From contig NZ_PDOB01000006.1 of assembly GCF_002760665.1 (NCBI RefSeq), forward strand, positions 62,001-126,000: DNA of 64,000 bases, in the 5' to 3' direction. The notes below the pieces were generated by a model. That model saw only the letters and a program-made list of their open reading frames with translations, did no database searches and had not been told where the DNA came from. Within the stretch, counting starts at the first letter, position 1. The number at the start of each line of letters is the position of its first letter. The stretch comes from Massilia psychrophila (GTDB lineage: Bacteria > Pseudomonadota > Gammaproteobacteria > Burkholderiales > Burkholderiaceae_D). A program made the translations under genes and the position numbers. Shown one piece after another: positions 4,603-59,097 of the stretch.

Positions 4603-4831
4603 ACCGGCTTTCATTCGCTCTGTTGTCGAAACTTAACCGTGGTCAAGGTCATCGAAAAATTCTTCTTACACAATCCTGATCAATGCCGCAGTCGCATCAC
4701 GTAAAAAAGACGCGTTCCACCTGGCTGTGGCCCGCATGGCAGGCTAAAATAAATACATGTGCCGGGGACGGGGCGATTGCCCCCCTCGCGCCGATTTCAA
4801 CCCACCAATCTGGCGCAAGTCGAGGATAATC

Positions 4832-5602: not shown

Positions 5603-5619
5603 ACAGGTGGGAGCACGTC

Positions 5620-6636: not shown

Positions 6637-6683
6637 CTGTCTGACAAAGTTTTTTGGATCCCAAAAGGGTTGACCTAAAAGAC

Positions 6684-6726
6684 AACACCCCGCCACGCCA
6701 TACAAGGCTTGCCGGGGTGTTTTTTA
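6684..6726 (+). terminator. rho-independent terminator after panE
   Basis: Inverted repeat AACACCCCG ... CGGGGTGTT followed by a run of T. It lies between two convergent genes and may also stop transcription from the minus strand, where the run is CTTTT. Confidence 0.85.
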
Positions 6727-6765
6727 TTGCGCCGCACAGTGGCGCGGTGCAAATCTACGTGCAGG

Positions 6766-7374
6766 TCAGATTTTGCCCTGGTTTTTCAGGCGGCTCAGGG
6801 TTTCCGGCGACAGGTTCAGGTAGGCCGCCAATTCCTTCTTGGGCAGACGTTCGAACAGTTCCGGGTACTTGCGCATGAAGCGGTGGACGCGGCCGGGGGC
6901 GTCGAGCAGGTGCAGCGTGATGGCATGGCCCATGATCGAGCTCATCAAATTCATCACCTCGTACTCGAACGCGGCCTTGACCTGGCTGTGACTTTCCAGA
7001 AAGGCCACCCATTGCTGCAGCGGCATGCGCGCCACCCGCGCCTTGGTCACGCAGACGATGCTGTAGGGCGTTGGCGTGCCGAGCCGCCACGCGGCGTAGC
7101 TGGTCTCGATGTCGCGCTCGGCGGGGAAGCGCAGGATCATCTCTTTCGCGTCCTGATTGGTGACCACGCGCTTGAGGATGCCGTCGAGCACGAAGTACTG
7201 CTCCATGTCGTGCACGCCCTGGCGTAGCAGCAGGTCGCCCTTCTGGTGGTTCTCGACCGTCAGATAGGGTTCAAGCGCCTCCATCTCGCTACCGCGCAAC
7301 TCTTTCAGAACGACGTTCTGTTTGAGCTGGACGCGAATAATATTTCGCTCGGGATGGTTTGCAACTAAGGTCAT
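6766..7374 (-). CDS. Crp/Fnr family transcriptional regulator, probable oxc-frc regulator
   Basis: A 202-residue cAMP-receptor-fold regulator: cyclic-nucleotide-binding-like beta-barrel (about residues 20-125), dimer helix, and a short helix-turn-helix at the C terminus ending ETLSRLKNQGKI. Residues Glu191, Ser194 and Arg195 match the E..SR pattern that FNR-class proteins use to read TTGA half-sites. Only one cysteine (about 108) is present, so it cannot hold a 4Fe-4S cluster like FNR, and the effector is unknown. It is divergent from oxc, and the shared gap contains ATTGACCCCGGTCAAT, a good FNR-type site. I infer that it controls the oxalate genes. Confidence 0.88.
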   Translation of the reverse strand: MTLVANHPERNIIRVQLKQNVVLKELRGSEMEALEPYLTVENHQKGDLLLRQGVHDMEQYFVLDGILKRVVTNQDAKEMILRFPAERDIETSYAAWRLGTPTPYSIVCVTKARVARMPLQQWVAFLESHSQVKAAFEYEVMNLMSSIMGHAITLHLLDAPGRVHRFMRKYPELFERLPKKELAAYLNLSPETLSRLKNQGKI

Positions 7375-7422
7375 GGAAAATTCACTATCTTATTTCGCGG
7401 CAGCCGACATCATGCGGCGAAA

Positions 7423-7466
7423 ATTGACCCCGGTCAATGAGAGATATCAAGTGGTCTAGCTATGAT
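7423..7466 (+). promoter_or_regulatory. FNR-type operator and -10 box of the oxc-frc promoter
   Basis: A perfect 16-bp palindrome ATTGACCCCGGTCAAT (7423-7438) contains TTGAC-N4-GTCAA, close to the FNR consensus TTGAT-N4-ATCAA. A -10-like TATGAT sits at 7461-7466. A start site about seven bases after that box puts the palindrome centre near -41.5, the position of class II FNR/CRP activator sites. A good -35 hexamer is absent, as expected for an activator-dependent promoter. The site also lies about 50-65 bases upstream of the divergent regulator gene, so autoregulation is possible. Confidence 0.6.
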
Positions 7467-7581
7467 CATCGCACTAAAAGACCGGCTGCGCTCTGCGTGG
7501 CACGGGACCAGGTTTCACCGGCCCCGCTCTTGCAGTCGCCTAGTACGACTTTATCGATTCACAAGGAGGAGACATCTCATC

Positions 7582-9297
7582 ATGACAGACACCACGCAAA
7601 CACCAGCAATGACCGACGGTTTCCATCTGGTCATCGATGCCCTCAAGCATAATGACATCGACACCATCTTTGGCCTGGTCGGCATTCCTATCACCGACCT
7701 GTGCCGCCTGGCGCAAGCGCAAGGCATGCGCTTCATCGGTTTTCGCCACGAGCAACATGCCGGCAATGCTGCGGCAATCGCTGGTTACATCACGCAAAAG
7801 CCAGGCATCTGCATGACCGTCTCCGCGCCGGGTTTTCTCAACGGCTTGACGGCTCTGGCCAATGCTACCACCAACTGCTTCCCGATGATCCTGATCTCAG
7901 GCTCGAGCGAGCGGGAAATCGTTGACCTGCAGCAGGGCGACTACGAGGAGATGGACCAGCTGAACGCGGCCAAGCCGTACTGCAAGGCGTCCTACCGGAT
8001 CAACCGCGCCGAAGACATCGGCATCGGCATCGCCCGCGCCATTCGCGCCGCGGTATCGGGCCGTCCGGGCGGCGTCTACCTCGACCTGCCGGCGCAATTG
8101 CTGGCGCAGACGCTGGACGCTGAAAAAGGCAGGAAGTCGCTGGTCAAGGTCGTCGACCCTGTGCCGCGCCAGTTGCCGGCGCCGGAATCGGTGCAGCGCG
8201 CGCTGGATCTGCTCAAGAGCGCCAAGAAGCCGCTGATCCTGCTTGGCAAAGGTGCGGCTTATGCACAGGCCGACGCCGACATTCGCGCGTTTGTCGAAAA
8301 CTCCGGTATTCCTTACCTGCCGATGTCGATGGCCAAAGGCTTGCTGCCTGACACCCACGCGCAATCCGCATCGGCGGCGCGCTCGTTCGTGCTGGCCGAA
8401 GCCGACGTCGTGGTGCTGATCGGCGCCCGCCTGAACTGGCTGCTGTCGCACGGCAAAGGCAAGACCTGGGGTTCCGTTCCTAAGCAATTCATCCAGATCG
8501 ACATCTCGCCAACCGAGATCGACAGCAACGTGCCGATCGCGGCGCCGCTGATTGGCGACATCGGCTCTTGCGTGTCGGCACTGCTGAAGGGCATCGAAAC
8601 GAACGGCCACAGCAAGCCTGACGCGGCCTGGACCGGCGCCATCTACGAGCGCAAGGACAAGAACCTGACGAAGATGGCGGCCACGCTCGACCTGAACCCG
8701 TCGCCGATGAATTTTCACAGCGCCCTGCGTGCGATCCGCGACATCCTCAAGACGCGCCCGGACATCAACGTCGTCAACGAAGGCGCCAACACGCTCGACT
8801 ACGCCCGCTCGATCATCGACATGTACGAGCCGCGCAAGCGCTTCGATTCCGGCACCTGGGGTATCATGGGTATCGGCATGGGTTACGCGATCGGCGCGGC
8901 CGTCATCAGCGGCAAGCCGGTGGTGGCGATCGAAGGCGACAGCGCGTTCGGCTTCTCCGGCATGGAACTCGAAACCATCTGCCGCTACGATTTGCCGATC
9001 GTGACGATCGTCTTCAACAACAACGGCGTCTACAAGGGCACCGACCCTAACCTGAACCCGAACAACGCCAACGACGTGCCGGTCACTTCGTTCGTCAAGG
9101 GTGCGCGTTACGACAAGATGATCGAAGCATTCGGCGGTATCGGCTACCACGTCACCACGCCGGCAGAAATGACCGCGGCGCTGTCCAAAGCGATCGCGTC
9201 CGGCAAGCCTTCGCTGATCAACGCGGTGATCGACCCGAACGCCGGCACCGAAAGCGGCCGCCTGACCAACCTGAACCCACAAAGTGGCAAGAAGTAA
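7582..9297 (+). CDS. oxc: oxalyl-CoA decarboxylase
   Basis: Thiamine-diphosphate enzyme that converts oxalyl-CoA to formyl-CoA and CO2, the key energy-yielding step of oxalate catabolism. It has 571 residues, close to the 568 of the Oxalobacter formigenes enzyme. The N-terminal domain carries [11 protein letters not shown] and the conserved Glu in [12 protein letters not shown]; the C-terminal ThDP site has [19 protein letters not shown] ending in FNNNGVYKG (about residues 451-482). The ATG at 7582 is chosen because an optimal AAGGAGGA lies 11 bases upstream; the open frame extends about 120 bases further back without a good site. The leader is about 110 bases. frc follows 32 bases downstream. 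Confidence 0.97.
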
Positions 9298-9329
9298 GCT
9301 GGCTTACCCGAAAACCAAGAGGAAAAATC

Positions 9330-10583
9330 ATGAGCAATAAACCGTTAGAAGGCATCAAGATCATCGACTTCACGCACGTGCAAGCCGGTCCGGCTTGTAC
9401 CCAGATGCTGGCATGGTTCGGCGCCGACGTGATCAAGGTCGAGCGTCCTGGCTCGGGCGACGTTACCCGCTCGCAACTGCGCGACATCCCGGGCGTCGAT
9501 GCACTGTATTTCACTATGCTTAACAGCAACAAGCGGTCGCTGACGCTGGATACCAAGAGCGAATCCGGCAAGGAAATCCTGACCAAGCTGATCAAGGAAT
9601 CGGACGTGCTGGTCGAGAACTTCGGACCAGGCGCGCTGGACCGCATGGGCTTCACGTGGGAGCACATCCACACGTTGAACCCGGGCATGATCGTCGCGTC
9701 CGTCAAGGGCTTTTCCGACGGTCACCACTACGAAGACCTGAAGGTGTACGAAAACGTTGCTCAGTGCGCGGGCGGCGCCGCATCGACCACCGGTTTCGAC
9801 GATGGTCCTCCGACCATTTCGGCCGCGGCACTGGGCGATTCGAACACCGGCATGCACCTGGCCATCGGCATCCTGACCGCGCTGCGCGGCCGCGATAAGA
9901 CCGGCCAGGGCCAGAAAGTGGCGGTCTCGATGCAGGACGCCGTGCTGAACCTGTGCCGCGTAAAAATGCGCGACCAGCAGCGCCTCGACCGCGTTGGCTA
10001 CCTGGAAGAGTATCCACAGTACCCGCACGGCAAGTTCGACGACTACGTACCGCGCGGCGGCAATGCCGGCGGCGGCGGCCAGCCAGGCTGGGTACTGAAG
10101 TGCAAGGGCTGGGAAACCGATGCCAACGCGTACATCTACTTCACTATCCAGGGCCACGCCTGGGCGCCGATCTGCAGGGCGATCGGCAAGGACGAGTGGA
10201 TTGACGATCCTGCCTATATGACCGCTGGGGCGCGCCAGGACAAGATCATGGACATCTTCGCGACGATCGAAATCTGGCTCGCTGACAAGACCAAGTTCGA
10301 AGCGGTCGACATCCTGCGCAAGTTCGACATCCCATGCGCACCAGTGATGACGATGAAAGAACTGCTCAACGACGAGTCCCTGCGCGCCAGCGGCACGATC
10401 GCGGAAGTGGATCACAAGGAACGCGGCAAGTACTTTACTGTCGGTAGCCCGATCAAGTTTTCGGAAACCACGGTCGAGATCACCGGTTCGCCGCTGCTTG
10501 GCGAGCACACCGATGAAGTGCTGGAAAGCCTCGGCTATACTTCCCAGCAGATCGCCGGTTTCCACGATCAAAAAGTAGTGTAA
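9330..10583 (+). CDS. frc: formyl-CoA:oxalate CoA-transferase
   Basis: Class III CoA-transferase that moves CoA from formyl-CoA to oxalate, regenerating oxalyl-CoA for Oxc. It has 417 residues (about 428 in O. formigenes). The N terminus has [19 protein letters not shown], and the catalytic Asp lies in GDSNTGMH at residue 170, equivalent to Asp169 of the characterised enzyme. The glycine-rich loop [12 protein letters not shown] (about residues 242-253) is the mobile loop that protects the active-site intermediates. AAGAGGAAAAATC precedes the ATG. It is cotranscribed with oxc and closed by a terminator. Confidence 0.96.
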
Positions 10584-10617
10584 GCACGGTGGCGACTTGC
10601 GTCGCCTGACCTGCGAG

Positions 10618-10656
10618 CGGCGCGCCGGGGCTTGATGCCGCGGGGCGCCGTTTTTT
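10618..10656 (+). terminator. rho-independent terminator after frc
   Basis: GC-rich imperfect hairpin (outer arms CGGCGC and GCGCCG) followed by six T residues, 35 bases after the frc stop. The PAS-domain gene begins 26 bases later, so it is either expressed by read-through or has its own promoter. Confidence 0.75.
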
Positions 10657-10681
10657 ATTCCTGAAACAGAAAGGTAGTAGC

Positions 10682-11134
10682 ATGCAAACCACTATCGATT
10701 TCCACCAACTAGTCGATGCGCTCGGCGATGGCGTCATCGTGTGCGATGCCGCCGGGGCGATCATCTTCTGGAACCAGTCGGCGACGCGGATATTCGGCTT
10801 TACCGAAGCCGACGCGCTCGGCCAGTCGCTCGACCTGATCATTCCCGAGCGCCTGCGCCAGCGCCACTGGGACGGCTATCACAAGACGATGGACACCGGC
10901 GAAACCCGTTACGGGGCCGACGTGCTGCGGGTACCGGCGCTGCACAAGGAAGGCACGCCGCTGTCGATCGCGTTTACGGTGGCGATGCTGCACACGCCGG
11001 AGAACAAGGTATCGTCGATCATCGCCATCGTGCGCGATGAGACGGTGCGCTGGGGTGAAGAGCGCGCGTTGAAGGCGAAAGTGGCGCTGCTCGAAGGGCA
11101 GATCAAGGCATCGGCGCCAGCGGTCGCACAATAA
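10682..11134 (+). CDS. stand-alone PAS domain protein
   Basis: A 150-residue protein made of one PAS/PAC module. The PAS core runs from ALGDGVIVCDAAGAIIFWN through ATRIFGFTEADALGQSLDLIIPE, with the PAC part in PLSIAFTVAML and IIAIVRDET. A short C-terminal coiled-coil segment (EERALKAKVALLEGQIKA) could mediate dimerisation. No output domain is visible. GAAAGGTAGTAG precedes the ATG. Its position directly behind frc suggests a sensory role linked to oxalate use, but ligand and partner are not evident. Confidence 0.85.
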   Translation: MQTTIDFHQLVDALGDGVIVCDAAGAIIFWNQSATRIFGFTEADALGQSLDLIIPERLRQRHWDGYHKTMDTGETRYGADVLRVPALHKEGTPLSIAFTVAMLHTPENKVSSIIAIVRDETVRWGEERALKAKVALLEGQIKASAPAVAQ

Positions 11135-11260
11135 GCTGACGTGACAAGCTCGGCGGTTTGCTGTTACTGGAAAAGTCAGCCCGTGCGGGGCGCCTGCTAA
11201 AATGGTAATAGCGCTTGGTATTTACCTTGAAACGCGCTTGCCAGAGAGGTCAAACATGCA

Positions 11261-11650
11261 ATGCTGAAATCGCTCAAGGTATGGGCCAAGCGACTAAAGC
11301 GCGACGTTATCACGCTCATGTTTGCCAGTCGGGATCCAGCGACCCCACTACTGCCGAAATTGCTTGCAATCGCGACCGTGGCCTATGCGCTCAGTCCCAT
11401 CGACCTGATCCCCGATTTTGTTCCCGTCATAGGCTATCTTGACGATTTGATTATCGTGCCGATCGGCATCTGGCTGTGTTTGCGCTTGATCCCTTGCCCA
11501 GTGATTGTCCATAACCGGGCAAAGGCCGAAGCCTGGTTGGCAAGCAATCCCATCAAACCACGCAGCATGATCGGTCTCGCCGTTATTTTAAGTATCTGGC
11601 TATGCAGTGCCTGGCTTTTCTGGCGTTGGCTTGCTAACGGCGCAGTGTAG
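11261..11650 (+). CDS. DUF1232 (YkvA family) membrane protein
   Basis: A 129-residue protein with the DUF1232 signature LLPKLLAIATVAYALSPIDLIPDFVP followed by IGYLDDLIIVPIGI; a second hydrophobic segment lies at the C terminus (MIGLAVILSIWLCSAWLFW). It is likely an inner-membrane protein of unknown function. AGAGAGGT lies ten bases before the ATG at 11261, and TAAAAT near 11198 could be a -10 box. It stands alone between the oxalate module and a minus-strand group. Confidence 0.85.
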   Translation: MLKSLKVWAKRLKRDVITLMFASRDPATPLLPKLLAIATVAYALSPIDLIPDFVPVIGYLDDLIIVPIGIWLCLRLIPCPVIVHNRAKAEAWLASNPIKPRSMIGLAVILSIWLCSAWLFWRWLANGAV

Positions 11651-11696
11651 AGCCGCGTCTTCCGGGGTTCGCAAGGCCTGAACATGTAGCCGATCT

Positions 11697-12269
11697 TCAG
11701 CGGCGCTCGTCTCCTTCGCTGGCGATCAGCATCGCGGCCGCGTACAGGTCGGGGGCGATGCGGGTCGGCACCCGGCGCGGGCCGAGGCGCCATTCGGTTT
11801 CAGTGCCATTGTCGACCAGCAGGGTGCGGCAGCCGGCGCGGTTGCCGGCCTCGACGTCATGCAGCCTGGCGCCGACCATCCACGACGCGCGCAGGTCGAT
11901 CTGGTGTTCGCTGGCGGCTTTGAGCAACAGGCCCGGCTGCGGTTTGCGGCAGCCGCAGGCGAACGCATAGCGCGTCACCGATCGCTTCGGATGATGCGGG
12001 CAGTAATAGAAGGCGTCGAGCGCGACCCGCTCGCGAAACATCAGGTCGCCAAGCCGGTCGGCGATTGACGCCATCGCCACTTCGTCGACCTGTCCATGGG
12101 CAATCGCGGCCTGGTCGCCGACGACGACGAGACGGTAATTGAGGCGCGCCAGCAGCCGCAGCGCCGGACCGGCCGCGCTGCACAGCGTGATGCAGCGCGG
12201 CTCGACGTTGCACGGGTTGTCGTCGACCAGCGTGTCGTCCTTGTCGAGAAAGACAGCTTTCATGGGCAT
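11697..12269 (-). CDS. HAD-IIIA family phosphatase (GmhB-like)
   Basis: A 190-residue HAD-superfamily phosphatase. Motif I is FLDKDDTLVDDNP, with the paired Asp nucleophile and acid; CPHHPKRSVTRYAFACGCRKPQPG resembles the zinc loop and motif III Lys of D-glycero-D-manno-heptose-1,7-bisphosphate 7-phosphatases; the last Asp motif is MVGARLHDVEAG. ATGs exist at 12269 and 12263; GAAG lies six bases before the first. It follows the glycosyltransferase gene by about 14 bases, so the pair probably acts on a sugar or surface glycan. The exact substrate is unknown. Confidence 0.82.
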   Translation of the reverse strand: MPMKAVFLDKDDTLVDDNPCNVEPRCITLCSAAGPALRLLARLNYRLVVVGDQAAIAHGQVDEVAMASIADRLGDLMFRERVALDAFYYCPHHPKRSVTRYAFACGCRKPQPGLLLKAASEHQIDLRASWMVGARLHDVEAGNRAGCRTLLVDNGTETEWRLGPRRVPTRIAPDLYAAAMLIASEGDERR

Positions 12270-12283
12270 GCAAGCTTCATCAA

Positions 12284-13306
12284 TCAGGCGAACCGGACGC
12301 GGTACCTGATGGCGCCGATCACGCGCCAGAACACCGCGACCGGCGGAATCAGCGCCGAGGTGACCAGTATGTCGGCGATGTGGACGGCACTGTGCGCTGC
12401 GCCGTCCAGGCGCCGGATGCACAGCATCGCCGTCAGTACCAGCCAGGCGCCGCAGCCGATGACGGCGACGACTTCGTTGCCGGCCACCAGGCCCAGCACC
12501 GCGATGACAATAGCGGCAACGATCGCGTATTCTTCCCAGCATGGCAGGCGGCGGATTTTCTGGCGGTACAGCTCGGGATGCTTTTTGTAGAGCAGGGCGT
12601 CGAAGCTGATCTTGTGCAGCTCGAACAGGCTGGCGCCCCACCGCGCCGGCGGCTCCGGATGGATCACCGTCGCCAGCGGCGAGCGGGCGATGTTGGCTTG
12701 CATTTTCAGCAGCCGGAAGTGGAGCTCGATGTCTTCGCGCCAGCCGGCGCAGAAACGCTCGTCGAAGCCGCCGAGGGCGTCGAGCACGGCGCGCCGGCAG
12801 AAACAGTTGGTGACGAGGATTTCAGAGTCGGGCGCGCCGGCGTCGCGCTCGTGGGCGGCCGGCACGCGCCGGTGCGGCGACTCGGTGCGGCCGCACAGCA
12901 CGTCGGTCTGGTCGCCGAAGCCGGCCATGGCTTGCGTCAGCCAGCCGGGCGAGGCCACCATGGCGTCGTCAAGGAAAGCGATGATCGGCGCCTTGGCGAT
13001 GCGCCAGCCGCAATTGCGCGCCGCTCCCGGCCCATGCGCGCCATCGTTGGCGACGTACGCCAGGCGCATGCCGCGCTCGAGGGTGCGGGCGCGCCAGTTG
13101 GCGACCAGTTGCAGCGTGTAACGGTTGGACTCGTCATCGACGACGATGATCTCGAAGGCGTCGGCGGCAAAGTCCTGGCGCGTCAGCGCGTCGAGACAGC
13201 GCTCGAGCAAGTCGAGCCGGCCGCGGGTCGACACCACGACCGATACTTGCGGCACCGTTTGCGCACCGGCCTGCGCCGGCTGTACTGCTGATGTCGTTGA
13301 CGGCAT
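12284..13306 (-). CDS. family 2 glycosyltransferase with C-terminal membrane segments
   Basis: A 340-residue GT-A glycosyltransferase. The N-terminal domain has QVSVVVSTRGRLDLLERC and EIIVVDDESN, then AFLDDAM as a DxD-like metal motif, and GGFDERFCAGWREDIELHFR as the acceptor ED motif. Two or three hydrophobic helices occupy the last 80 residues, which places the protein at the inner membrane. I prefer the ATG at 13306 over the one 12 bases upstream because GGAGGGG sits four bases before it. The HAD phosphatase gene follows. The sugar donor cannot be named. Confidence 0.85.
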   Translation of the reverse strand: MPSTTSAVQPAQAGAQTVPQVSVVVSTRGRLDLLERCLDALTRQDFAADAFEIIVVDDESNRYTLQLVANWRARTLERGMRLAYVANDGAHGPGAARNCGWRIAKAPIIAFLDDAMVASPGWLTQAMAGFGDQTDVLCGRTESPHRRVPAAHERDAGAPDSEILVTNCFCRRAVLDALGGFDERFCAGWREDIELHFRLLKMQANIARSPLATVIHPEPPARWGASLFELHKISFDALLYKKHPELYRQKIRRLPCWEEYAIVAAIVIAVLGLVAGNEVVAVIGCGAWLVLTAMLCIRRLDGAAHSAVHIADILVTSALIPPVAVFWRVIGAIRYRVRFA

Positions 13307-13403
13307 CGCCCCTCCCATGGAATCGCTATCATGCTTGGAGGGCGCAACCGGCGCGCGGTTCCTGGCGCTTCACCAGGTTTGGACCTGGCTCAATAAAGCT
13401 GGC

Positions 13404-14291
13404 TCAATGAAGCGCAATCGCTGTCGATTTGCCTTTGACGAAAGCGTCGATCGTGTCCAGGGTCGGCGCCAGCGCGCGCAGCGGCGCGGCGATCGAGGCG
13501 ACCAGGGTGATGTGGCTGACGCCGTCGTAATAGACTTCCTCGACCGGCACGCCGTGGGTCCGTAACTTGGCGGCCAGTCCGCCGGTGTTGCGCACGGGAT
13601 TAACCAGTTGGTCCTTGTTGGCGGCGATCAGCAGCGCCGGCAGCACGGCCCCGTCAGTGTGGTTGATCGGCTGCGATTGGGGCGGCGTGTCGGGGAAGTG
13701 AAAGACCGGGCGGGCGGTCTTGTTTTCTATCGGCATGAAATCATAGGGCCCGGCCAGGCCGATCCAGCCAGCTAGGCTGGCGCTGGCCATGCCTTGCTTG
13801 CCGAGATAGCGCGCGTCGAGCGCGAGCATGGCGGCGTTGTAGGCGCCGGCGCTGTGGCCCATCAGGAACAGCTTGCGCGGGTCGCCGCCGTAGTGGGCGA
13901 TATTCTTCGCTGTCCACGCGACTGCCTGGGCCGAGTCGTCGAGGAAGTCAGGGTAGCGCACTTCGGGATACAGCCGGTAGTCGGGAATCACGGCGACGAT
14001 GCCGCGCGAGGCGAGGGCGCGGCCGACAAAGGCGTAGTCGCCGCGTTCGCCCGTGGCCCAGTTGCCGCCATAGAAAAACACCACCACCGGCGAGGCCCCG
14101 GTAACGCGCGCCGGCCGGTAGATGTCGAGCTTGAAACGGGCGCCGCTGCCGTAGGCGAGGCCAAGGCTGGTGTCGGCGTCGCCGCCCGGCGACAGCGCGT
14201 TAATCGCTGTCAAAGGCGAGCACGCTGCAAGGCCGCCGATAGTAACGACGGCGGCGGCCAGGCCGTACAGGGTCAGGCGGAGCTTGCGCAT
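13404..14291 (-). CDS. alpha/beta hydrolase, predicted lipoprotein esterase
   Basis: A 295-residue alpha/beta hydrolase of the esterase/lipase class. The N terminus is a lipoprotein-type signal (hydrophobic stretch ending GGLAAC), which suggests membrane-anchored export. The oxyanion-hole region is VVVFFYGGNWATGERGDY, the nucleophile elbow is GHSAGAYNAAML, and the terminal His lies in DGVSHITLV. The ATG at 14291 is chosen because the signal peptide begins there; the frame is open 60 bases further upstream without signal character. Natural substrate unknown. Confidence 0.87.
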   Translation of the reverse strand: MRKLRLTLYGLAAAVVTIGGLAACSPLTAINALSPGGDADTSLGLAYGSGARFKLDIYRPARVTGASPVVVFFYGGNWATGERGDYAFVGRALASRGIVAVIPDYRLYPEVRYPDFLDDSAQAVAWTAKNIAHYGGDPRKLFLMGHSAGAYNAAMLALDARYLGKQGMASASLAGWIGLAGPYDFMPIENKTARPVFHFPDTPPQSQPINHTDGAVLPALLIAANKDQLVNPVRNTGGLAAKLRTHGVPVEEVYYDGVSHITLVASIAAPLRALAPTLDTIDAFVKGKSTAIALH

Positions 14292-14384
14292 GAGAATCTC
14301 GTGTCGGTGGTTTTGTCCACGACAATTATAGCCATTTGACAAAAACCGCAAGCACGCTTGAGAGCGGCCACCCTTGCCGTGGCC

Positions 14385-15275
14385 TCAAAGCGAGCGCGCG
14401 CCGAAGGTATCGCATTGGGTAAATTCGCCCGTCTCGATGCCTTTGCTGAACCAGCGCACCCGCTGCGCCGACGTGCCGTGGGTGAACGAATCGGGCACGA
14501 CGCGGCCTTGCGACTGTTGTTGCAAGGTGTCGTCGCCGATCGCCGCTGCCGCCGCCAGCGCACCCTCGACGTCGCCTTGCTCGAGGATGTTGCGGCTGCG
14601 GTTGGCGTGGAACGCCCACACGCCGGCGAAGCAGTCGGCCTGCAGCTCGAGCTTGACCAACATCGCGTTAGCCTGTTTTTCGCTGCCGCCCTGGCGCGCG
14701 GCATTGACTTTTTCGTCAATGCCGAGCAGGTGCTGGACATGGTGGCCGACTTCGTGCGCGATGACGTAGGCCTGGGCAAATTCGCTGTTGACGTTGAAAC
14801 GCTGCTGCATCAGCCGGTAGAACGCCAGGTCGATATACACCTTCTGGTCGGCGGGGCAGTAGAACGGGCCGGAGGCGGTTTCTCCGGTGCCGCAGGCAGT
14901 CTGGGTGGCGCCGGTAAACAGCACCAGTTTCGGCTTTTTGTACTGGGCATTCTGCGCGCGGAACAGCGCGGTCCAGGTGTCTTCGGTGTCGGCCAGCACG
15001 ACCGCAACGAATTTCGCCTGGGTGTCCGAGGCCGGCGGCGCGCGCGCGGGTGACTGCTGCTGCACCGGCGCCATCGCGCCGCCGCCGCCGCTAAGGGCAT
15101 TAATGATCGTCATCGGGCTCACGCCCAGGAAGTAGGAGCCGACCAGCGCAATGGCGATGGTGCCGATGCCGATGGAGCGTCCGCCGAAACCAAATCCGCC
15201 GCCACCGCCACCGCCGCCGTCGTCGCCGCGACGGTCTTCTACGTTATCGCTCTCGCGATTGCCTTCCCACTTCAT
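14385..15275 (-). CDS. ypfJ: YpfJ-type neutral zinc metallopeptidase
   Basis: A 296-residue putative metalloprotease. The N terminus is acidic and followed by an extraordinary glycine run (GGGGGGGGFGFGG), then a single transmembrane helix, so the catalytic domain is predicted in the periplasm. The zinc site is AHEVGHHVQHLLG, with the third-ligand region in LELQADCFAGVWA. C-terminal landmarks such as DSFTHGTSAQRVRWF are typical of the family. The length is normal. Function in the cell is not established. Confidence 0.9.
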   Translation of the reverse strand: MKWEGNRESDNVEDRRGDDGGGGGGGGFGFGGRSIGIGTIAIALVGSYFLGVSPMTIINALSGGGGAMAPVQQQSPARAPPASDTQAKFVAVVLADTEDTWTALFRAQNAQYKKPKLVLFTGATQTACGTGETASGPFYCPADQKVYIDLAFYRLMQQRFNVNSEFAQAYVIAHEVGHHVQHLLGIDEKVNAARQGGSEKQANAMLVKLELQADCFAGVWAFHANRSRNILEQGDVEGALAAAAAIGDDTLQQQSQGRVVPDSFTHGTSAQRVRWFSKGIETGEFTQCDTFGARSL

Positions 15276-15466
15276 GGTTGTTCTCCTGCTGAGTTCGATA
15301 GGACCATCATGCCACTTTGTACTGCCGCCGTCCTATTGTCGTCCACGCGCGCCGTCGACGCCGTCAACGCCGTCAATATACCCGCTCGCGCGAAAGTGCA
15401 GGGTTACGTTGAATGCGCCTGGGAAACAGGAGCCCCCATCGGCGCGGTGAAAATCAACGCAGTGAC

Positions 15467-15802
15467 TCAGTCCGGCGTGCCGTCGCTGCGGCGGCCGACG
15501 TTGCTTTGCCGTTCCTGCTGCTTGTTCTGCTCGACTTCGGAAACCTCGCGGTTGGCGGTGTTCGACAGGCCGGTGTCGTCATCCATTTTTTGGTCGGCCG
15601 CCAGGTGACTGCCAGCCGGCGCCATCGGCAAGCCGGCGCTCTCGGCGCTTTGCGCGCTGCCGGGTGATTCGCCCTGCTGCATCGCGTCGCCGCCAGCAGC
15701 GGCAGGCTTGGCGCTGCTGAAAGCGCGCGACGACGATTCGGCCGGCTTGTTGCCGCCATTGCTGGACTGGTTATTGGTGTCGCTTCGTTGGTTCGAGTTC
15801 AT
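15467..15802 (-). CDS. hydrophilic, low-complexity protein of unknown function
   Basis: A 111-residue protein rich in Ser, Asn, Gln, Ala and Glu with no hydrophobic core, predicted intrinsically disordered. The ATG at 15802 is supported by AAAGGA eight bases upstream. It is divergent from the KGG-motif stress protein gene at 16149, which is also disordered. No family is recognised; a general stress or desiccation role is only a guess from composition and neighbour. Confidence 0.6.
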   Translation of the reverse strand: MNSNQRSDTNNQSSNGGNKPAESSSRAFSSAKPAAAGGDAMQQGESPGSAQSAESAGLPMAPAGSHLAADQKMDDDTGLSNTANREVSEVEQNKQQERQSNVGRRSDGTPD

Positions 15803-16148
15803 GTGGATTCCTTTATCGTCTAAGAGAACTGCAAGACGGTTGCACGTTGTCAGGACCGCCATCATGCGCGCCGGTTCCGTGTTCTCGAATAGGAAGAAAG
15901 ATCGACTCCCTGTAGGACTCGCACTTACAGCAATGTTCTTACGGCAGCACTATTTATTTATCGCACTTTCTGTCACCTGTTGTCCTACAAGCACGTCTGC
16001 TTTGGTCCTATACCCTCATCCATGCGCGCTGCATAAGATGACTTCACTCCGCTCGCTCATCGGCGCTTTGCCGGAACGATCGGACTTCGAACTCCGCCGT
16101 CGCGCATGGCGCAACACGGGGCAATTGCAAAGCTTAGGGAGGTGTACC
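15803..16148. other. 346-bp divergent intergenic region
   Basis: No gene is evident. It must hold the promoters of the two divergent small hydrophilic proteins. It is more A/T-rich than its surroundings around 15940-16020. GGGAGGT before 16149 is the ribosome-binding site of the KGG protein. I see no convincing operator. Confidence 0.5.
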
Positions 16149-16535
16149 ATGGTTACAAGAAATGAAGCTAACAAGCAGAGCGGCACTGCAGGCGCAAGCC
16201 AGGGCGGCGGCACCAAGAATCGCGGCTTCGCGTCGATGGACCCGGCACGCCAGCGCGAAATCGCCAGCCAGGGCGGTAAGGCTGCGCATCAAAAGGGAAC
16301 CGCCCACGAATTCACATCCGAAGAGGCACGCCGTGCCGGCAGCATGAGCCACGGCAACCGGCAATCGGCTGCGGCCAGCGCCGGCGCGGCAGGCTCGGGT
16401 ACGGCCAGCGCCACGGCGTCGTCCGGCGAGCAGGGCGGCAACAAGCAAGGCGAGCAGAGCGTCAGCCGCGGCGGCGAGGACGGCGCGCGCGGCGCCGCGA
16501 AGAGTTCGTCCAGCGCGTTGAAAAAATCGCGCTAG
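16149..16535 (+). CDS. KGG/Con-10 motif stress-induced protein
   Basis: A 128-residue small hydrophilic protein with two copies of the KGG-type motif: GFASMDPARQREIASQGGKA, then HEFTSEEARRAGSMSHG. This matches the YciG/GsiB/Con-10 class induced by general stress and, in many bacteria, by stationary phase. The last 65 residues are a Gly/Ser/Ala/Gln-rich disordered tail ending in KKSR. The start at 16149 follows GGGAGGTGTACC; the frame is open for more than 400 bases upstream, but without matching composition. rpoS lies in the same window, yet no sigma-S promoter can be pinned down here. Confidence 0.85.
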   Translation: MVTRNEANKQSGTAGASQGGGTKNRGFASMDPARQREIASQGGKAAHQKGTAHEFTSEEARRAGSMSHGNRQSAAASAGAAGSGTASATASSGEQGGNKQGEQSVSRGGEDGARGAAKSSSSALKKSR

Positions 16536-47678: not shown

Positions 47679-48476
47679 TTAAACCGCCCGCCCCATCTTC
47701 TGCACCGTGTAATTCGGCACATCCTTCGGCGGCTTTACCAGCTTGACGATTGCCATCGTGCAGTTGCCGCCCTTGCCCTGGGCGCGCTCGGCGGCCTTGT
47801 CGATCAGCAGCCCGGACGCCTGGCGCGGCGCGTTCCGGGCGAGGACGGCGCCGAGCTCGGCGTCGGTGAAAAAATGCCACAAGCCGTCCGAACACAACAG
47901 GAAAGAATCGCCCGCATCGAGTCTCTCGTGGCTGCCGATGGCAACGAACGGTTCCTTGCGGCTGTTGCCCAGCACGTTCACCAGCAGCTTCGAATGACGG
48001 TGGTTGTGCGCCGTTTCGGGCGGCAGTTTGTCGGTTTCCATCAGGTAATCGATGTACGTCGCGTCGCTGGTGCGCGACTTGCACTCGCCGTTCTGGAAAC
48101 GGTACAGGCGCGAATCGCCGACGTGCGCCCACACCCCCTGACCGCCCGGGGTGATGATCAGGGCGGCGAAGGTGGCGTGCGGCTCGGTCTGGGTTGCGAC
48201 CCCGTTCATCTTGATGACGAGATGGGTTTCGTGGACGATTTCGCGCAGCAGGTTCGATAACCGTTCGATGCCCGGGTTGTCGCCGGGCTTGAATTCGTCG
48301 AACAGTTGCTTGGCCGTGTGCAGTACCTGCTCGGACGCGTTGGCGCCGACGGCCAGCACCGCCATCATGTAGCCGGGCGCGCGGGCGCCGGTGAACAGGG
48401 CGGTGCGGTCATTTTGTTGGGGCCGGTTACCGATGTGCTGGGCCGTGCCGGCTTCGATCTTGTATGAATTCATCAC
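47679..48476 (-). CDS. PP2C-type protein phosphatase fold, lacking metal-ligand motifs
   Basis: A 265-residue PP2C-fold protein. Motif 1 (NRPQQND), GDSRLYRF and CSDGLWHF are present. The second motif, normally ADGMGG, reads LAVGANASEQ (residues 41-50), as if a few residues including the Asp were lost, and the last metal motif, normally DN, reads GGNCTMAIV. Two aspartates that bind the catalytic metals are therefore absent, so it may be an inactive pseudophosphatase. An inverted repeat TTTAATCTA/TAGATTAAA lies just upstream. Confidence 0.82.
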   Translation of the reverse strand: MMNSYKIEAGTAQHIGNRPQQNDRTALFTGARAPGYMMAVLAVGANASEQVLHTAKQLFDEFKPGDNPGIERLSNLLREIVHETHLVIKMNGVATQTEPHATFAALIITPGGQGVWAHVGDSRLYRFQNGECKSRTSDATYIDYLMETDKLPPETAHNHRHSKLLVNVLGNSRKEPFVAIGSHERLDAGDSFLLCSDGLWHFFTDAELGAVLARNAPRQASGLLIDKAAERAQGKGGNCTMAIVKLVKPPKDVPNYTVQKMGRAV

Positions 48477-51943: not shown

Positions 51944-52137
51944 TGCCGTCTCCGTCATGGTTGCTTTTAAAATAGTACGACCGTTTGATTTTAAGATTAT
52001 GCCCGAAGTGTATGGCGCCAGCCATCGCCGATGAGCTGAGGGCGCGTTTGCGAAAACGCAAAGCGGTAAAAGTCGAGCTTGTTACAGTCTTGGTGGCGAG
52101 CGCGCGATGTTGACTTTTGTACATCGGGAGGGTGGAA

Positions 52138-52746
52138 ATGGCAATCCGTTACGGCTGTTTCTTCAGCTATGCACATGGCCGCCGGGACTTGATGATGAAC
52201 AAGTTCACCACCGAGCTGGCCGAATCCCTGCGTTGCTATCTCGAACCCTATTTTAACGACGAGGACGAGCTGTTCATCGACCGCGAACAGCTCGGCGGCG
52301 GCGACGACATCGACCACAAGATCGCCCGCGCGATGTGCGAAAGCGTCGCCATGATCATGATCTATACGCCGAAATACGAGGCCCACCTCTTCACCCGGCG
52401 CGAACATGCGGCAATGAAGTTGATCGAAGCCGAGCGCAGCACGTGGTATGCGATGCCGAGCCACCTGATCATCCCGGTCATCCTGACCCACCACCCGGAC
52501 CACCTGCCGCCGCAAATTACCAGTTCCATGTACGTGGATTTCTCGCGCTTCACGATGGCCACCACCGACATGAAGTCCAATCTCGACTTTATCCCGGATA
52601 TCAAAAAAATCGCCACTCGCATTGCCCAGCATTACGTGTGTCAAAAGAACCATACGCCGGCTAGTCACAACTGCAACCAATTTGTACTTCCCGCTGTCAC
52701 ACCGGAATGGCGTGAAAAGCCGGAAGTTTCGTTCCCAAAAATATAA
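52138..52746 (+). CDS. TIR-domain protein (FxsC-like), first gene of a TIR-TPR pair
   Basis: A 202-residue protein that is essentially one TIR-like domain. The first strand motif is CFFSYAHG (residues 7-14), the BB-loop region is LFIDREQLGGGDD (45-57), and ARAMCESVAMIMIYTPKYEAHLFTRREHAAM (64-93 region) includes Glu89 at the position of the catalytic Glu of NAD-cleaving TIRs. The C-terminal 50 residues are unassigned, and their DNA is more A/T-rich than the surroundings. GGGAGGGTGGAA precedes the ATG, and the TPR gene starts eight bases after the stop. Layout resembles the TIR-like FxsC of actinobacterial FxSxx-COOH loci. NAD cleavage is inferred, not shown. Confidence 0.85.
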   Translation: MAIRYGCFFSYAHGRRDLMMNKFTTELAESLRCYLEPYFNDEDELFIDREQLGGGDDIDHKIARAMCESVAMIMIYTPKYEAHLFTRREHAAMKLIEAERSTWYAMPSHLIIPVILTHHPDHLPPQITSSMYVDFSRFTMATTDMKSNLDFIPDIKKIATRIAQHYVCQKNHTPASHNCNQFVLPAVTPEWREKPEVSFPKI

Positions 52747-52754
52747 GGAGTTCT

Positions 52755-55229
52755 ATGGAAATTAACCGAATTACACTGCCGCCGATAACCGCTCCCGGCG
52801 ACGTGACCACCTTCTATTCATTCGAGAGTGGAACGGCGCGCAGTGTCGCGCTGTCGAACATGGCGATGCTGCTCGCGGGGCGACAAAATGCCACCGTGCC
52901 AGTACTCATGATCGATTGGGATACCGAAGCACCCGGCCTGCACCATTTCTTCGAGCAGCCGGGGCAGACGCAAGGGAAACGGCCAGGCGTGCTCGAGTAT
53001 TTCGAGGCCTGCCGCGAGCATCTGCACCTGGTGCAGCGCACCGCCCCTGGACTCGACGACGCCGCTCTTGCCATCCGGGTCCTCGAAGCGGTTGACTGGG
53101 AACCGTACGTCGAGCGGGTCGACCAGAGCCGTCCGTTGTACCTGATGCGCGCCGGCTGCTTCGACAGCAGCTATGGCGAACGGGCCGACCGGATGGACTG
53201 GGACAGCCTGTTTGCCGCCTGCCCGGCGTTTTTCCGCTGCTTCGGCGAACACCTGGCGCGCCAGTTCCGCCATGTGCTGATCGATGCGCGCAGTGGCCGC
53301 TCGGCCGCCGTCAGCATCTGCACCACGCTGCTGCCGCGCAAGCTGGTGGCGCTGTTTACGCCCAACCAACGCAGCCTCGAAGGCCTGGCCGGGGTGGTCA
53401 ACCGCGCCATTGAATACCGTTGCAGCCACGAAGATGAACAGCGGCCGCTGCTGGTCTACCCGCTGCCGTGCTCGGTCGACAGCGCCGACTGCGGGCGCCG
53501 CCTGCAATGGCGCCGCGGCGACCCGCACAAAGGCGTCGGCGGTTACCAGCCGGTGCTCGAAAAACTGCTGCGCCAGACCTATGGCATGGCGCAGATATCG
53601 CTCGACGGCTATTTCGACGAAGTGCAGCTGCAGCAGACCAGCGCGATGTCCAGTGGCGACCATTTGACGGCCTGCCCGGAACGCGGAGGCGATCGCTTTT
53701 CACTGACGCGCACCTTTGAAATCCTGCTCGACTGGGTTGCTGACGGTCATTTTCCATGGCAATCGCGCGCCGAGATCGCGCTGCTGTCGAACATCGCCGC
53801 GGCCCGGGCGCTGTCGATCGACGGCATCGCGACGGCGGTGTCGATGCCGCTTGCGGCCGACCTCCTGCGGCTTGGCGAGCTGTACCGGCTGCAGGGCCGT
53901 TACCGGCAGGCCGAGCAATGTTTCGAGGAAAGCGTCACCTTGCGCGAGTGCCTGCTCGGCATTGATCATGCCGACACCCGCGCCAGCCGCGCCGGCCTGG
54001 CCGGTCTGCTGCGCGAGAACGGCAAGCCGGACGAAGCGAGTCTCCTTTACGCGCTGCTGGCCGGCGACTGCCGGCGCCTGCTTGGCGCCGACCATCCCGA
54101 AACGCTCGGCGTGCTGGCCGGGATGGCCGCTACGCTGGCCGACTTGCGAACATTCCCCCAGGCGCTGGCCTTGCACGGGGAAGTCACCGAGGCGTGGGAG
54201 CGGCTGGTCGGTCCCAACCACGTCCAGTTCCTGACCAGCCTTGCCGAGCAGGCCGGCACGCAGGCGCGCTCCGGCGAGCTGAGCCGGGCCCGTTATGGCT
54301 ATGAACGGGTGCTCGAAGGGCGACAGCGCCTGCTCGGCACCGAACACGAGGACACTTTGCGCTGCACCGAGCAGCTAGCCACGCTGCTGTGCGAGCTGGG
54401 CGATCTCGGCAATGCCCGCAAATTGCAGGACGAAGTGGTACTGGCGCGCGAGCGGCATGTCGGCGCCGACCACGTCGATACGGTGCGCTCGCGCGAATCC
54501 CTGGCCGAAATCGTCGCCACGCTGGGCGACCTGGACGCCGTGCGCACCATCCAGGAGACGCTGGCCGGGTCGCGCGAACGGCGGCTCGGCGCCGAGCATC
54601 CTGAAACGCTGAGCATCAAGCTGCGGCTGGCGACGACGCTCGGCGAGCAGGGCGACCTGGAAGCGGCGCGCCGCATCCAGCAGCACGTCGTCAACCAGCA
54701 GGAGCGGATGTACGGAATGGACGATTTCGAGACGCTGCGCAGCAAGAAAATGCTGGCCGCTACTTTGTCGAGCCAGGGCAATGCCGATGCCGCGCGCCAA
54801 CTGGTCGAGACCGTCCGCCTGGGCACCAACCGGCTGCGCAACATGGGCGGCATGGCCTCCGGCCCGCACGAGTCGGACTTCGGAACGGTCGGCTTGAAGG
54901 CGGCGATCCTCGAAGCGCGCGGCGGCAATGGCGACCCCGACACGCTCGACCATAAGCTGGCCCAGCTGCAGCAGTTGATCGACAACCAGAGTCCGCGCGA
55001 GGCGCGCGCGCTGGCCGACAGCCTGCGCGCAATGGTGCTGCAGCCGTGCGTTGCGCATCCCCTGCGGCGGCGCGGCGTGGCAATGATCAAGCAGGTCTAT
55101 GAACAGGAGGGCGACCTCGGTGCGCTGGTGGCCTTTTTGAAGGCCGAATTGACGTCGGTGAGCGGGGCGCTGATCAATGCAGTCGGCGGCAAGACAGCAG
55201 TCGCCCAACAAGCCGATGCGTCAGGTTAA
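52755..55229 (+). CDS. MinD/KGGVGR-like domain fused to kinesin-light-chain-type TPRs
   Basis: An 824-residue protein. Residues 18-270 resemble the SIMIBI ATPase of KGGVGR-type proteins: TFYSFESGTARSVALSNMAMLL at 19-40 aligns with the usual FYSFKGGVGRS, and LMIDWDTEAPGL at 51-62 matches the Walker A-linked Asp strand. The signature Lys and glycines are changed (ESGTARS), so nucleotide hydrolysis is doubtful. Residues about 365-690 form seven or eight 42-residue TPRs with the LLGxxHxDTL pattern. It is translationally linked to the TIR gene. Similar domain pairs occur in FxSxx-COOH loci and NTPase-based conflict systems; here it may sense a partner through the TPRs and control the TIR. Confidence 0.85.
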   Translation: MEINRITLPPITAPGDVTTFYSFESGTARSVALSNMAMLLAGRQNATVPVLMIDWDTEAPGLHHFFEQPGQTQGKRPGVLEYFEACREHLHLVQRTAPGLDDAALAIRVLEAVDWEPYVERVDQSRPLYLMRAGCFDSSYGERADRMDWDSLFAACPAFFRCFGEHLARQFRHVLIDARSGRSAAVSICTTLLPRKLVALFTPNQRSLEGLAGVVNRAIEYRCSHEDEQRPLLVYPLPCSVDSADCGRRLQWRRGDPHKGVGGYQPVLEKLLRQTYGMAQISLDGYFDEVQLQQTSAMSSGDHLTACPERGGDRFSLTRTFEILLDWVADGHFPWQSRAEIALLSNIAAARALSIDGIATAVSMPLAADLLRLGELYRLQGRYRQAEQCFEESVTLRECLLGIDHADTRASRAGLAGLLRENGKPDEASLLYALLAGDCRRLLGADHPETLGVLAGMAATLADLRTFPQALALHGEVTEAWERLVGPNHVQFLTSLAEQAGTQARSGELSRARYGYERVLEGRQRLLGTEHEDTLRCTEQLATLLCELGDLGNARKLQDEVVLARERHVGADHVDTVRSRESLAEIVATLGDLDAVRTIQETLAGSRERRLGAEHPETLSIKLRLATTLGEQGDLEAARRIQQHVVNQQERMYGMDDFETLRSKKMLAATLSSQGNADAARQLVETVRLGTNRLRNMGGMASGPHESDFGTVGLKAAILEARGGNGDPDTLDHKLAQLQQLIDNQSPREARALADSLRAMVLQPCVAHPLRRRGVAMIKQVYEQEGDLGALVAFLKAELTSVSGALINAVGGKTAVAQQADASG

Positions 55230-55420: not shown

Positions 55421-56158
55421 ATGAGAATACTAATCAGCAATGACGACGGCTATCTCGCCCCCGGTATCAACGCCTTGGCCGAAGCGCTCGCCCTTGTCGC
55501 CGAGATCGTGGTGGTTGCGCCCGACAGCAACCGTTCGGGCGCGTCGAATTCTCTGTCGTTGGACCGGCCGTTGTCAGTCCAGCGAGCCGCCAACGGCTTT
55601 TACTTCGTCAACGGTACGCCGACCGACTGCGTCCACGTGGCGCTCACCGGCATGCTCGACTACCGTCCGGATCTGGTGGTGTCGGGCATCAACAACGGCC
55701 CCAACATGGGTGACGACACCTTGTATTCCGGCACCGTCGCGGCCGCCACCGAAGGCTACCTGTTCGGCATTCCCGCGATCGCTTTTTCACAGGCCGAGCA
55801 CGGCTGGACCAACCTCGACGCCGCCGCCCGCGTTGCCCGCGACCTGGTGCTGCGCCGCTTCGACGAGCTCGCCTCGCCCTATCTGCTGAACGTCAACATC
55901 CCCAATTTGCCGTACGAGCGTCTCGGCGCCATCACCGCTACCCGGCTCGGCCGGCGCCACCAGGCCGAGCCGGTGATCCGCGCCCTCGACCCGCGCGGGC
56001 GCGAGATTTTCTGGATCGGCCCGCCCGGCGCTACTCTTGACGCCGGCGAAGGCACCGATTTCCATGCGGCCGCGCATGGCCTGGTATCGGTGACTCCCTT
56101 GCAGGTGGACCTTACCCACAAGACCCAGCTCGCCGCGCTGGCACGGGGCCTCGCATGA
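55421..56158 (+). CDS. surE: 5'/3'-nucleotidase SurE
   Basis: Metal-dependent phosphatase for nucleoside 5'- and 3'-monophosphates, linked to stationary-phase survival. The 245-residue protein has the N-terminal [15 protein letters not shown] metal site, [39 protein letters not shown] and AFSQ. It opens the conserved surE-pcm-nlpD-rpoS group. TAAAAT at 55409 is a possible -10 box very close to the start. Confidence 0.96.
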
Positions 56159-58053: not shown

Positions 58054-59097
58054 ATGACACCGCATCCGCCACACCCGCTGGAAGACGATCCAGTTGCAGA
58101 CGACTTCGCCGACGGACGGTTGGATGACGGCGCCATCGATCCGGAGGAGGAGGGCGAGGGTGCCAATCAGGGTCGCGATGGCCACGATGGTCATGCGGTG
58201 CCGGTCCCGGAGGTTGCACTGGCTAGTGTCGATGAACTGAAAAAAGTGCTGGCGGCCGAGTTGTCGACCGACACCACCCAGCACTATCTGAACCAGATCG
58301 GCACCCGGCCGCTGCTGACGGCGCCGCAGGAAGTGCATTTCGCCACCCTCGCCAAGGCCGGCGAGTTCAGCGCCCGCCAGACCATGATCGAACACAACCT
58401 GCGGCTGGTGGTGTCGATTGCCAAGCACTACATCAACCGCGGCGTCGTCTTGCTCGACATGATCGAGGAGGGCAATATCGGCCTGATGCGGGCAATCGAC
58501 AAGTTCGAGCCGGAGCGCGGCTTTCGCTTTTCCACCTACGCCACCTGGTGGATTCGCCAGAGCATCGAGCGCGCCATCATGAACCAGGCCCGCACGGTGC
58601 GATTGCCGGTGCACATGGTGCGCGAACTGAACCAGGTGTTGCGCGCCAAGTACCACCTCGAAGCCCGGCATCACAACGGCAAGGACGCCACCGCTGAAGA
58701 CATTGCCCACCTGGTCGGCCGCCCGGTCGAGGAAGTACAGGACATCCTGGCGCTGTCCGAGCACGCCACCTCGCTCGACGCCCCGCTCGACAACGATCCT
58801 CAATCGAGCCTGATGGACATGCTGCCGGGCGACGCCGACGACAGCCCCGACGCCCGGGCCGAACACCACGAAATGACGGTACTGGTGCGCGACTGGCTCA
58901 CCAAGTTGCCCGACAAACAGCGCATCGTCGTGATGCGCCGCTTCGGCCTCGACAATGACGATCCGGCCACGCTCGAAACCTTGGCCGAGGAGATGGGCGT
59001 GACGCGCGAGCGGGTGCGCCAGATTCAGCAGGAGGCGCTCGTCAAGCTGAAGCGGGCCATGGCCGCCCGTGGCGTGGTGCGCGATTCCTTGCTATGA
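58054..59097 (+). CDS. rpoS: RNA polymerase sigma factor RpoS
   Basis: General stress and stationary-phase sigma factor. The 347-residue protein has an acidic N-terminal extension of about 60 residues, then region 1.2 ([19 protein letters not shown]), region 2 ([37 protein letters not shown]), region 3 and region 4 ([40 protein letters not shown]). It starts at 58054; a nearby ATG 11 bases upstream reads into a stop. Its products probably include the small stress proteins seen earlier in the window. Confidence 0.96.

Follow-up and report, generated by a model that had tools for sequence, protein, structure and literature searches.

Bacterial TIR genes are familiar chiefly from defence systems with a patchy distribution. 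An excerpt of PMC7159879 describes conflict systems that contain TIR, TPR and AP-ATPase parts as well as MinD/ParA-like ones that are inactive. Here we have analysed a 64,000-nt stretch of a Massilia psychrophila contig (NZ_PDOB01000006.1; hereafter the window, from whose position 1 all feature coordinates are counted), in which a gene for a small TIR protein is followed by a gene for a partner protein that joins a MinD-like domain related to the KGGVGR family to TPRs of the kinesin-light-chain type. Our computations detected a TIR fold with an invariant glutamate, linkage of the two genes, a fixed genomic place, wide presence, purifying selection, a promoter pattern and a change in the P-loop of the partner. 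The reading that we favour, tentatively and at a little short of an even chance, is that a TIR module of the conflict type has undergone domestication and now serves as a regulated switch for NAD+ signalling, probably induced by stress or redox change. No paper on the pair or its promoter was found among the matches listed from the literature searched, a body of work that leaves most subscription journals outside its coverage.

Comparison with described systems

Comparisons were made across 95 loci from a sample of the family, after dropping one genome from another genus (G128; TIR identity 27%) and one with the TIR gene and partner on separate contigs (G212). Counts of TIR proteins exclude a frameshifted locus (L167), hence 94, while counts of partner proteins omit this locus and L164, which has no partner. 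The carrier genera are designated g1, g5, g11, g18 and g40.

The preliminary description had likened the pair to the FxSxx-COOH systems. The shared modules bear this out, as a stand-alone TIR-like protein occurs in both, alongside a TPR protein built from repeats of one and the same type, and the best NCBIfam hits of the pair are FxsC_Nterm and FxSxx_TPR. The scores are, however, far under the cut-offs (38.1 bits against 130 and 142.4 against 300, respectively), the best-matching stretch for FxSxx_TPR being the TPRs themselves (residues 374–513), and FxSxx membership was rejected because these cut-offs were not reached. Further differences are that no NB-ARC match was found in the pair by a Pfam scan, that no recurrent FxsA-like peptide was seen near the genes (10 short open reading frames (ORFs) of 30–90 aa within 4.5 kb across the 95 loci, six of which were compared and found unlike each other) and that we are dealing here with a core chromosomal locus in the Pseudomonadota. 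A reduced FxSxx-COOH system, consisting of FxsC and the FxSxx TPR protein after loss of the peptide and the maturase, was already disfavoured and is extremely improbable. As for Thoeris, ThcB4 alone was matched, at 17.5 bits against a cut-off of 220, and no Thoeris model was among the PADLOC matches.

The one full-length relative found outside the family is in a genome (G768) of another family of the Burkholderiales. Here (locus L197, positions 4501–16210) four genes lie on one strand in the order CHAT giant (CHAT and LCAT-like hydrolase, 2062 aa), TIR, KGGTGR-TPR protein (984 aa) and TPR-S/cyclase (603 aa). The TIR is 28% identical to ours, including Glu89 and a C-terminal W...FPR, and the protein encoded directly downstream of it likewise carries kinesin-type TPRs. 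In contrast to the pair, this cluster has four genes, with a CHAT-hydrolase and a cyclase, an intact P-loop and no such operator as that described below (five mismatches at best). It gives the impression of a more complete conflict system to which the pair is related. A full-length match was present in this genome alone among 28 of its family, and a tblastn search with its TIR gave no match in the plasmid collection.

The TIR protein

The preliminary description of the first gene product as a single-domain TIR protein with a plausible catalytic Glu89 was upheld. The protein scores 35.2 bits against Pfam TIR_2 (PF13676; cut-off 28). The best of five AlphaFold models, built from a 13-row alignment, has a mean predicted local distance difference test score of 78 (52–69 for the other four); TIR-bearing entries were among its 50 best Foldseek matches listed, and the top structural matches were TIR entries. 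With VIA-align this model matched the SPARTA TIR (Z 12.5, 3.0 Å, 135 residues), TIR assemblies of MyD88 (Z 12.0, 3.3 Å, 134 residues), AbTir (Z 11.6, 2.8 Å, 129 residues) and SARM1 (Z 10.3, 2.9 Å, 120 residues). The TIR sequence by itself had no match up to E 1 among PDB chains; a profile search of PDB sequences paired Glu89 with the glutamate of the W-T-E-Y-E motif of BtTir, the match being weak (E 0.0077). Glu89 and the preceding T86, R87 and R88 are invariant in 94/94 homologues, and the length of the protein is 200–203 aa in all loci except the frameshifted one. Judged from these alignments, Glu89 would occupy the catalytic W-x-x-x-E-like position of TIR NADases. The likeness to SPARTA TIR-APAZ, AbTir and SARM1, whose TIRs we take to be NADases, thus lies in the fold and, by way of the BtTir alignment, in the position of the catalytic glutamate, whereas the differences are that ours is a single-domain TIR with a MinD-like TPR partner and that its activity is a prediction.

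Distribution, inheritance and selection

Matches to the TIR were detected in 97 of 294 sampled genomes of the family, 96 of which belong to the five genera and one, a weak match, to a sixth (G128). Genus-wide censuses found the gene in 36/40 genomes of g5, 57/62 of g18, 17/17 of g11 and 74/74 of g40 (184/193 in total), some of these matches being partial and one of the 74 being a deletion fusion (G346, locus L191); g1 has at least five matching genomes. It is single copy in every census genome except for one split gene (G237). Named carriers include Massilia eurypsychrophila, M. agrisoli, M. polaris, M. soli, M. norwichensis, M. glaciei, Pseudoduganella namucuonensis, P. lurida, P. violaceinigra and P. 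umbonata, in addition to two metagenome bins. Outside the family, a profile search of 399 genomes of the order gave one full-length relative, that in G768, the other hits being partial and weak, while the same type of search in 398 genomes of the phylum gave no full-length relative and again partial and weak hits. The TIR had no tblastn match in 72,556 plasmid and 50,697 phage records.

Both ORFs were found where the preliminary description had placed them, eight bases apart, and their linkage holds in other genomes (94/95 loci, more than expected by chance). The two-gene unit of a TIR and a KGGVGR-type TPR protein lies upstream of surE, a place where it is absent from ten outgroup genomes of other genera. 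Where the stretch reaches far enough, surE is directly downstream of the pair (92/92 loci), and dinG and/or qor is upstream in 94/95, locus L091 showing neither in the 5 kb fetched. Minor variants are six g40 loci with qor but no dinG and the absence of an adjacent qor from 24/26 loci of g5; the named loci L066 and L072 have the usual order of TIR, partner, surE, pcm, nlpD and rpoS. A TIR gene without its partner occurs in one locus only (L164, genome G243), a natural TIR-only form with a perfect operator, which argues against a simple toxin–antitoxin pair because the TIR was kept after loss of the partner. Nine genomes of g5 and g18 gave no TIR match: the site is cleanly empty in seven, a TPR remnant persists in another (L177), and the locus of the ninth runs into a contig edge (L179). 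In L191 the start of the TIR has been fused by an in-frame deletion to the last part of the TPR region, and the operator remains perfect. Empty sites, remnant and fusion together indicate that the locus is not essential.

Trees of the TIR, the partner and surE-pcm-nlpD-rpoS (88 loci for the trees, and 88 or fewer for the substitution rates given below) all have the split between g1+g11+g18 and g5+g40. At a support of 0.95, 15/18 splits of the TIR tree and 30/32 of the partner tree were compatible with the core tree, and at 0.8 the figures were 36/45 and 42/56. Some recombination or weak signal remains, because g18 is non-monophyletic in all three trees and g11 and g40 are monophyletic in only some of them. 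These data are best explained by one insertion followed by mostly vertical descent with rare losses, the single entry being what we infer.

Selection was examined as the median ratio of non-synonymous to synonymous substitution rates (dN/dS) in within-genus pairs with dS of 0.15–1.0, pairs that differ per gene and mix P-loop states. The TIR (0.109) is under purifying selection at a housekeeping level, comparable to rpoS (0.095) or surE (0.135); pcm and nlpD had values of 0.139 and 0.267, and the partner gave 0.329 for its N domain and 0.413 for its C part. Partner length varies from 346 to 950 aa across loci, and eight partners (six in g40 and two in g18) have no match to the TPR part of the window protein. 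The patterns of dN/dS, length and Glu89 thus divide the pair into a constrained, enzyme-like part and a variable, sensor-like part.

The two-gene unit of the preliminary interpretation therefore stands, but its placing as an accessory or mobile defence locus does not, since the locus is single copy, near-universal in the clade, largely congruent with its neighbours in the trees, under purifying selection and without a plasmid or phage match. The accessory-defence reading was rejected on census, synteny and selection, and carriage by plasmids or phages on the lack of a match in either collection. The main rival to domestication is an anti-phage abortive infection system that has become fixed in the clade, in which the TPRs would sense a phage protein and the TIR would kill the cell or deplete NAD+. 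Such a system would account for the recurrence of TIR, TPR and MinD-like modules in conflict systems (excerpt of PMC7159879), for the highest dN/dS measured being in the C part of the partner, as expected of a sensor, for the sensor-like coexistence of partners with and without a match to the window TPRs, for a PADLOC match of partner residues 16–65 to the phage-defence candidate PDC-M28B (28.2 bits, E 2.4e-7) and for the CHAT/cyclase setting of the L197 relative. It sits poorly with a near-universal single copy in one place beside dinG, surE, pcm, nlpD and rpoS, with the lack of plasmid or phage matches, with a constraint on the TIR equal to that on rpoS, with PADLOC matches of the TIR itself that are weak (best E 0.0012) and with a dedicated CRP/FNR-type promoter, which suggests physiological control; we consider it unlikely. 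Among the window neighbours in the PADLOC scan, dinG matched type IV DinG models and surE matched none.

A conserved promoter upstream of the TIR gene

The palindrome TTTGCG-N4-CGCAAA, with up to three mismatches, is present upstream of the TIR gene in 94/95 loci and is perfect in 35. Columns T3, G4, C13, A14 and A15 are invariant in 95/95, and in spacer columns 8 and 9 the most frequent base accounts for only 37 and 34 of the 95. A TANANT hexamer follows in 94/94 loci, at a spacing of 20 bp (75 loci) or 21 bp (19 loci). The combination of operator and hexamer was found in 94/95 real regions as against 0/950 Markov-resampled copies of the same regions, in none of 522 regions upstream of surE, pcm, nlpD, rpoS, rlmD and dinG of the same loci, and in none of 19 stretches (two of them <700 bp) that precede surE where the pair is missing; L191, which retains the operator further upstream, was left out of these 19. 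In each of twelve contig-named loci, some of them from the same genomes, the hexamer lies at 20 bp, and the operator has 0–4 mismatches. Within the window, the operator of the TIR gene is the sole perfect match to the palindrome. The bare pattern with up to two mismatches is not enriched there (3 found, 6.65 expected), so that what carries weight is that the match is perfect, the spacing fixed and the site conserved. The operator belongs to the TIR gene, because it is kept in g5, where most loci show no adjacent qor, and in the partner-less L164, and it is also retained where deletion has decayed the pair (L191). The operator and −10 pattern of this promoter is new in this analysis.

CRP/FNR activators in a class II position have their operator centred near −41. 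If transcription starts about 7 bp after the hexamer, as we predict, the operator centre would lie near −41 in a class II-type pattern. An excerpt of PMC6710368 lists the NnrR-dependent norE, nnrR and hemN2 of Bradyrhizobium with TTGCG-N4-CGCAA boxes. This provides a lead towards a nitric oxide (NO)- or oxygen-responsive CRP/FNR protein as the putative regulator. A scan of 800 kb (16%) of a same-genus genome, excluding its own TIR locus, gave six operator-like hits, two of which are both strands of one site; only one of the six is combined with the hexamer, so that either the regulon is small or its sampling is poor.

The hemerythrin-like gene of locus L274 (positions 5143–5898) has an FNR-type box, TTTGCGCTAGATCAAA, upstream, from which a −10-like hexamer is again 20 bp away; the profile score of its product is 24.5 bits, just below the cut-off of 25.3.

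Quorum sensing would be another form of control. In Janthinobacterium sp. HH01, the log-fold change of Jab_2c19720, a core 'TIR domain containing protein', is −2.29 in an autoinducer-synthase mutant (Table 3 of PMC5080296), and the gene is listed there as core genome minus Marseille and with 'y' for the JAI-1 motif. Its distribution fits that of the window TIR gene, of which it is a candidate equivalent. The JAI-1 motif TTGAN6/7TCAA, however, was found within 350 bp upstream of the TIR gene in only 3/95 loci, all in g11 (0.7 expected from resampling). Quorum-sensing control is hence at best lineage-specific and was rejected as a general explanation; that the pair is a quorum-sensing-controlled effector is very unlikely.

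A scan for sigma-70 promoters and terminators gave counts no higher than shuffles allow. A hairpin with a T-run lies between the partner and surE in 10/91 loci by a crude test, so that transcription may or may not read through into surE.

The partner protein

The preliminary account of the partner as an 824-aa protein with a MinD-like N domain and seven or eight kinesin-light-chain TPRs agrees with both profiles and model. Pfam TPR_10 matches it in seven stretches, the model has 17 helices across residues 338–696 and the best structural matches of this solenoid in the PDB are kinesin light chains, kinesin light chain 1 foremost. Its description as KGGVGR-like applies to the domain, which comes close to AAA_KGGVGR (NF047398; 84.1 bits, or 87.6 in a second scan, against a cut-off of 90), but not to the motif, which is no longer intact. 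Two orthologues were scanned and both clear this cut-off (L071 at 119.1 bits and L068 at 100.8), placing the pair near the KGGVGR-motif variant AAA ATPases; the window copy differs from that family in its score below the cut-off, its lost P-loop lysine and its pairing with a TIR.

An intact KGGxGR[ST] P-loop is present in 25/25 partners of g5 and 22/26 of g40 (47/51) and in 0/42 of g1, g11 and g18, where the lysine position is occupied by an acidic residue throughout (Glu in 38 and Asp in 4). Loss is the likely direction of change because the distant relative L197 has KGGTGR, and the P-loop was presumably lost in a single event at the root of g1+g11+g18, with a further loss in four proteins of g40. 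As the orthologues above the family cut-off have a lysine P-loop and the window copy does not, the window protein appears to be a derived member of the KGGVGR family and is probably a non-ATPase.

These changes bear on whether the pair might be a non-enzymatic scaffold, in which the TIR and MinD-like domains form a complex that positions other proteins without NAD+ chemistry. The replacement of the P-loop lysine by E or D in 42/42 proteins of one clade would fit such a scaffold, as would the high structural score of the MyD88 TIR assemblies (Z 12.0) and the prediction, in the excerpt of PMC7159879, that MinD/ParA-like domains of related systems are inactive. The invariance of Glu89 and T86-R87-R88 in 94/94 proteins and the presence of the SPARTA, AbTir and SARM1 TIRs among the top structural matches argue for an enzyme instead, and make a scaffold distinctly unlikely.

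Pairing of KGGVGR proteins with a TIR looks uncommon, because none of 73 neighbouring ORFs matched TIR around 30 KGGVGR loci fetched after 369 genomes of the phylum had been searched (1.5-kb flanks; 91 ORFs minus the 18 KGGVGR ORFs themselves). Three loci (L169, L170 and L172) are three-gene units of what we take to be a small protein, an MqsA-like/helix-turn-helix-type protein and a KGGVGR-TPR protein. One of them (L170) is on a 23-kb contig and adjoins integrase- and transposase-like ORFs, and the units look like a sporadic mobile system.

Features of the window

The coordinates are collected in Table 1. The ORF finder placed the start of the TIR ORF at a TTG at 52117, upstream of 52138. To the preliminary description we add that the P-loop is degenerate, that the promoter is conserved and that pcm-nlpD-rpoS lie beyond surE. 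An ORF at 47679–48476 on the minus strand, which we take to encode a PP2C-like phosphatase, gave no match in the PADLOC scan.

Table 1. Positions of the TIR–partner pair, its promoter elements and neighbouring genes in the window
Feature	Position	Strand	Description or basis
Operator TTTGCG-AAAA-CGCAAA	52047..52062	+	FNR/CRP-type palindrome, N4 spacer; ~41 bp before predicted transcription start
−10-like hexamer TACAGT	52083..52088	+	20 bp beyond operator; sequence pattern
TIR gene	52138..52746	+	202-aa protein, predicted NAD+-acting effector
Glu89 codon	52402..52404	+	predicted catalytic glutamate (F-T-R-R-E ~ W-x-x-x-E); alignment, invariance
Partner gene	52755..55229	+	824-aa protein, MinD-like KGGVGR-family domain and TPR solenoid
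MinD/ParA-like alpha-beta domain	52800..53474	+	~residues 16–240; AAA_KGGVGR match at residues 17–216, alpha/beta order in model
Degenerate P-loop ESGTARS	52824..52844	+	KGGxGR[ST] in most sister-clade proteins; sequence
Kinesin-light-chain-type TPR solenoid	53766..54842	+	~8 repeats, residues 338–696; profile, model
surE (presumed)	55421..56158	+	directly downstream of pair, first of surE-pcm-nlpD-rpoS; context
rpoS-like sigma factor gene (presumed)	58054..59097	+	last of neighbouring stress genes; context

Discussion

We propose that the pair most likely entered once, upstream of surE, in a single Massilia/Pseudoduganella-related clade, bringing or acquiring its own promoter, and has since been passed on, for the most part vertically, as a core locus in single copy. 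The class II-type promoter would probably be switched on by an activator of the CRP/FNR family from the operator ~41 bp before the start, the signal perhaps being NO, a cyclic nucleotide or a shortage of oxygen. Once made, the TIR enzyme would probably cleave NAD+ or build a nucleotide signal from it, while the MinD-like domain and TPR solenoid of the partner may hold, position or license the TIR, with the TPRs reading a variable protein ligand that governs it. Under stress this would result in slowed metabolism or in a signal, and transcription could possibly continue from the pair into the adjoining surE-pcm-nlpD-rpoS. The fullest version of this proposal, a clade-wide core switch in which a redox- or NO-responsive CRP/FNR regulator drives a TIR NAD+ enzyme with a pseudo-ATPase and fast-changing TPR sensor as its partner, transcriptionally tied to the rpoS operon, is rather unlikely to hold in all its parts.

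Several observations weigh against domestication as a regulated switch. The N domain of the partner evolves fast and its P-loop has been lost in the clade of the window, which weakens an ATP-driven mechanism, and the same domain matches PDC-M28B. The Bradyrhizobium boxes came from a search for FixK2-type sites, and in the excerpt of PMC6710368 no NnrR consensus is defined and many of the listed boxes are of the TTGAT type. In the 800 kb scanned, one operator-like site had a hexamer, that by the hemerythrin-like gene. The locus has been lost, as seen from the seven clean empty sites, the TPR remnant and the deletion fusion, and the 95 loci are related and do not amount to 95 independent observations. 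Finally, the NADase activity, regulator, trigger, protein contact, single entry and read-through invoked here are elements that we infer.

The natural partner-loss and TPR-less forms provide a ready structure–function series, and through the operator the inducing signal is open to direct experiment. With its rpoS-like constraint, near-universality in its clade and own promoter, the TIR gene would be a tractable case for studying TIR chemistry outside phage defence, and would offer a view of how immune modules become domesticated.

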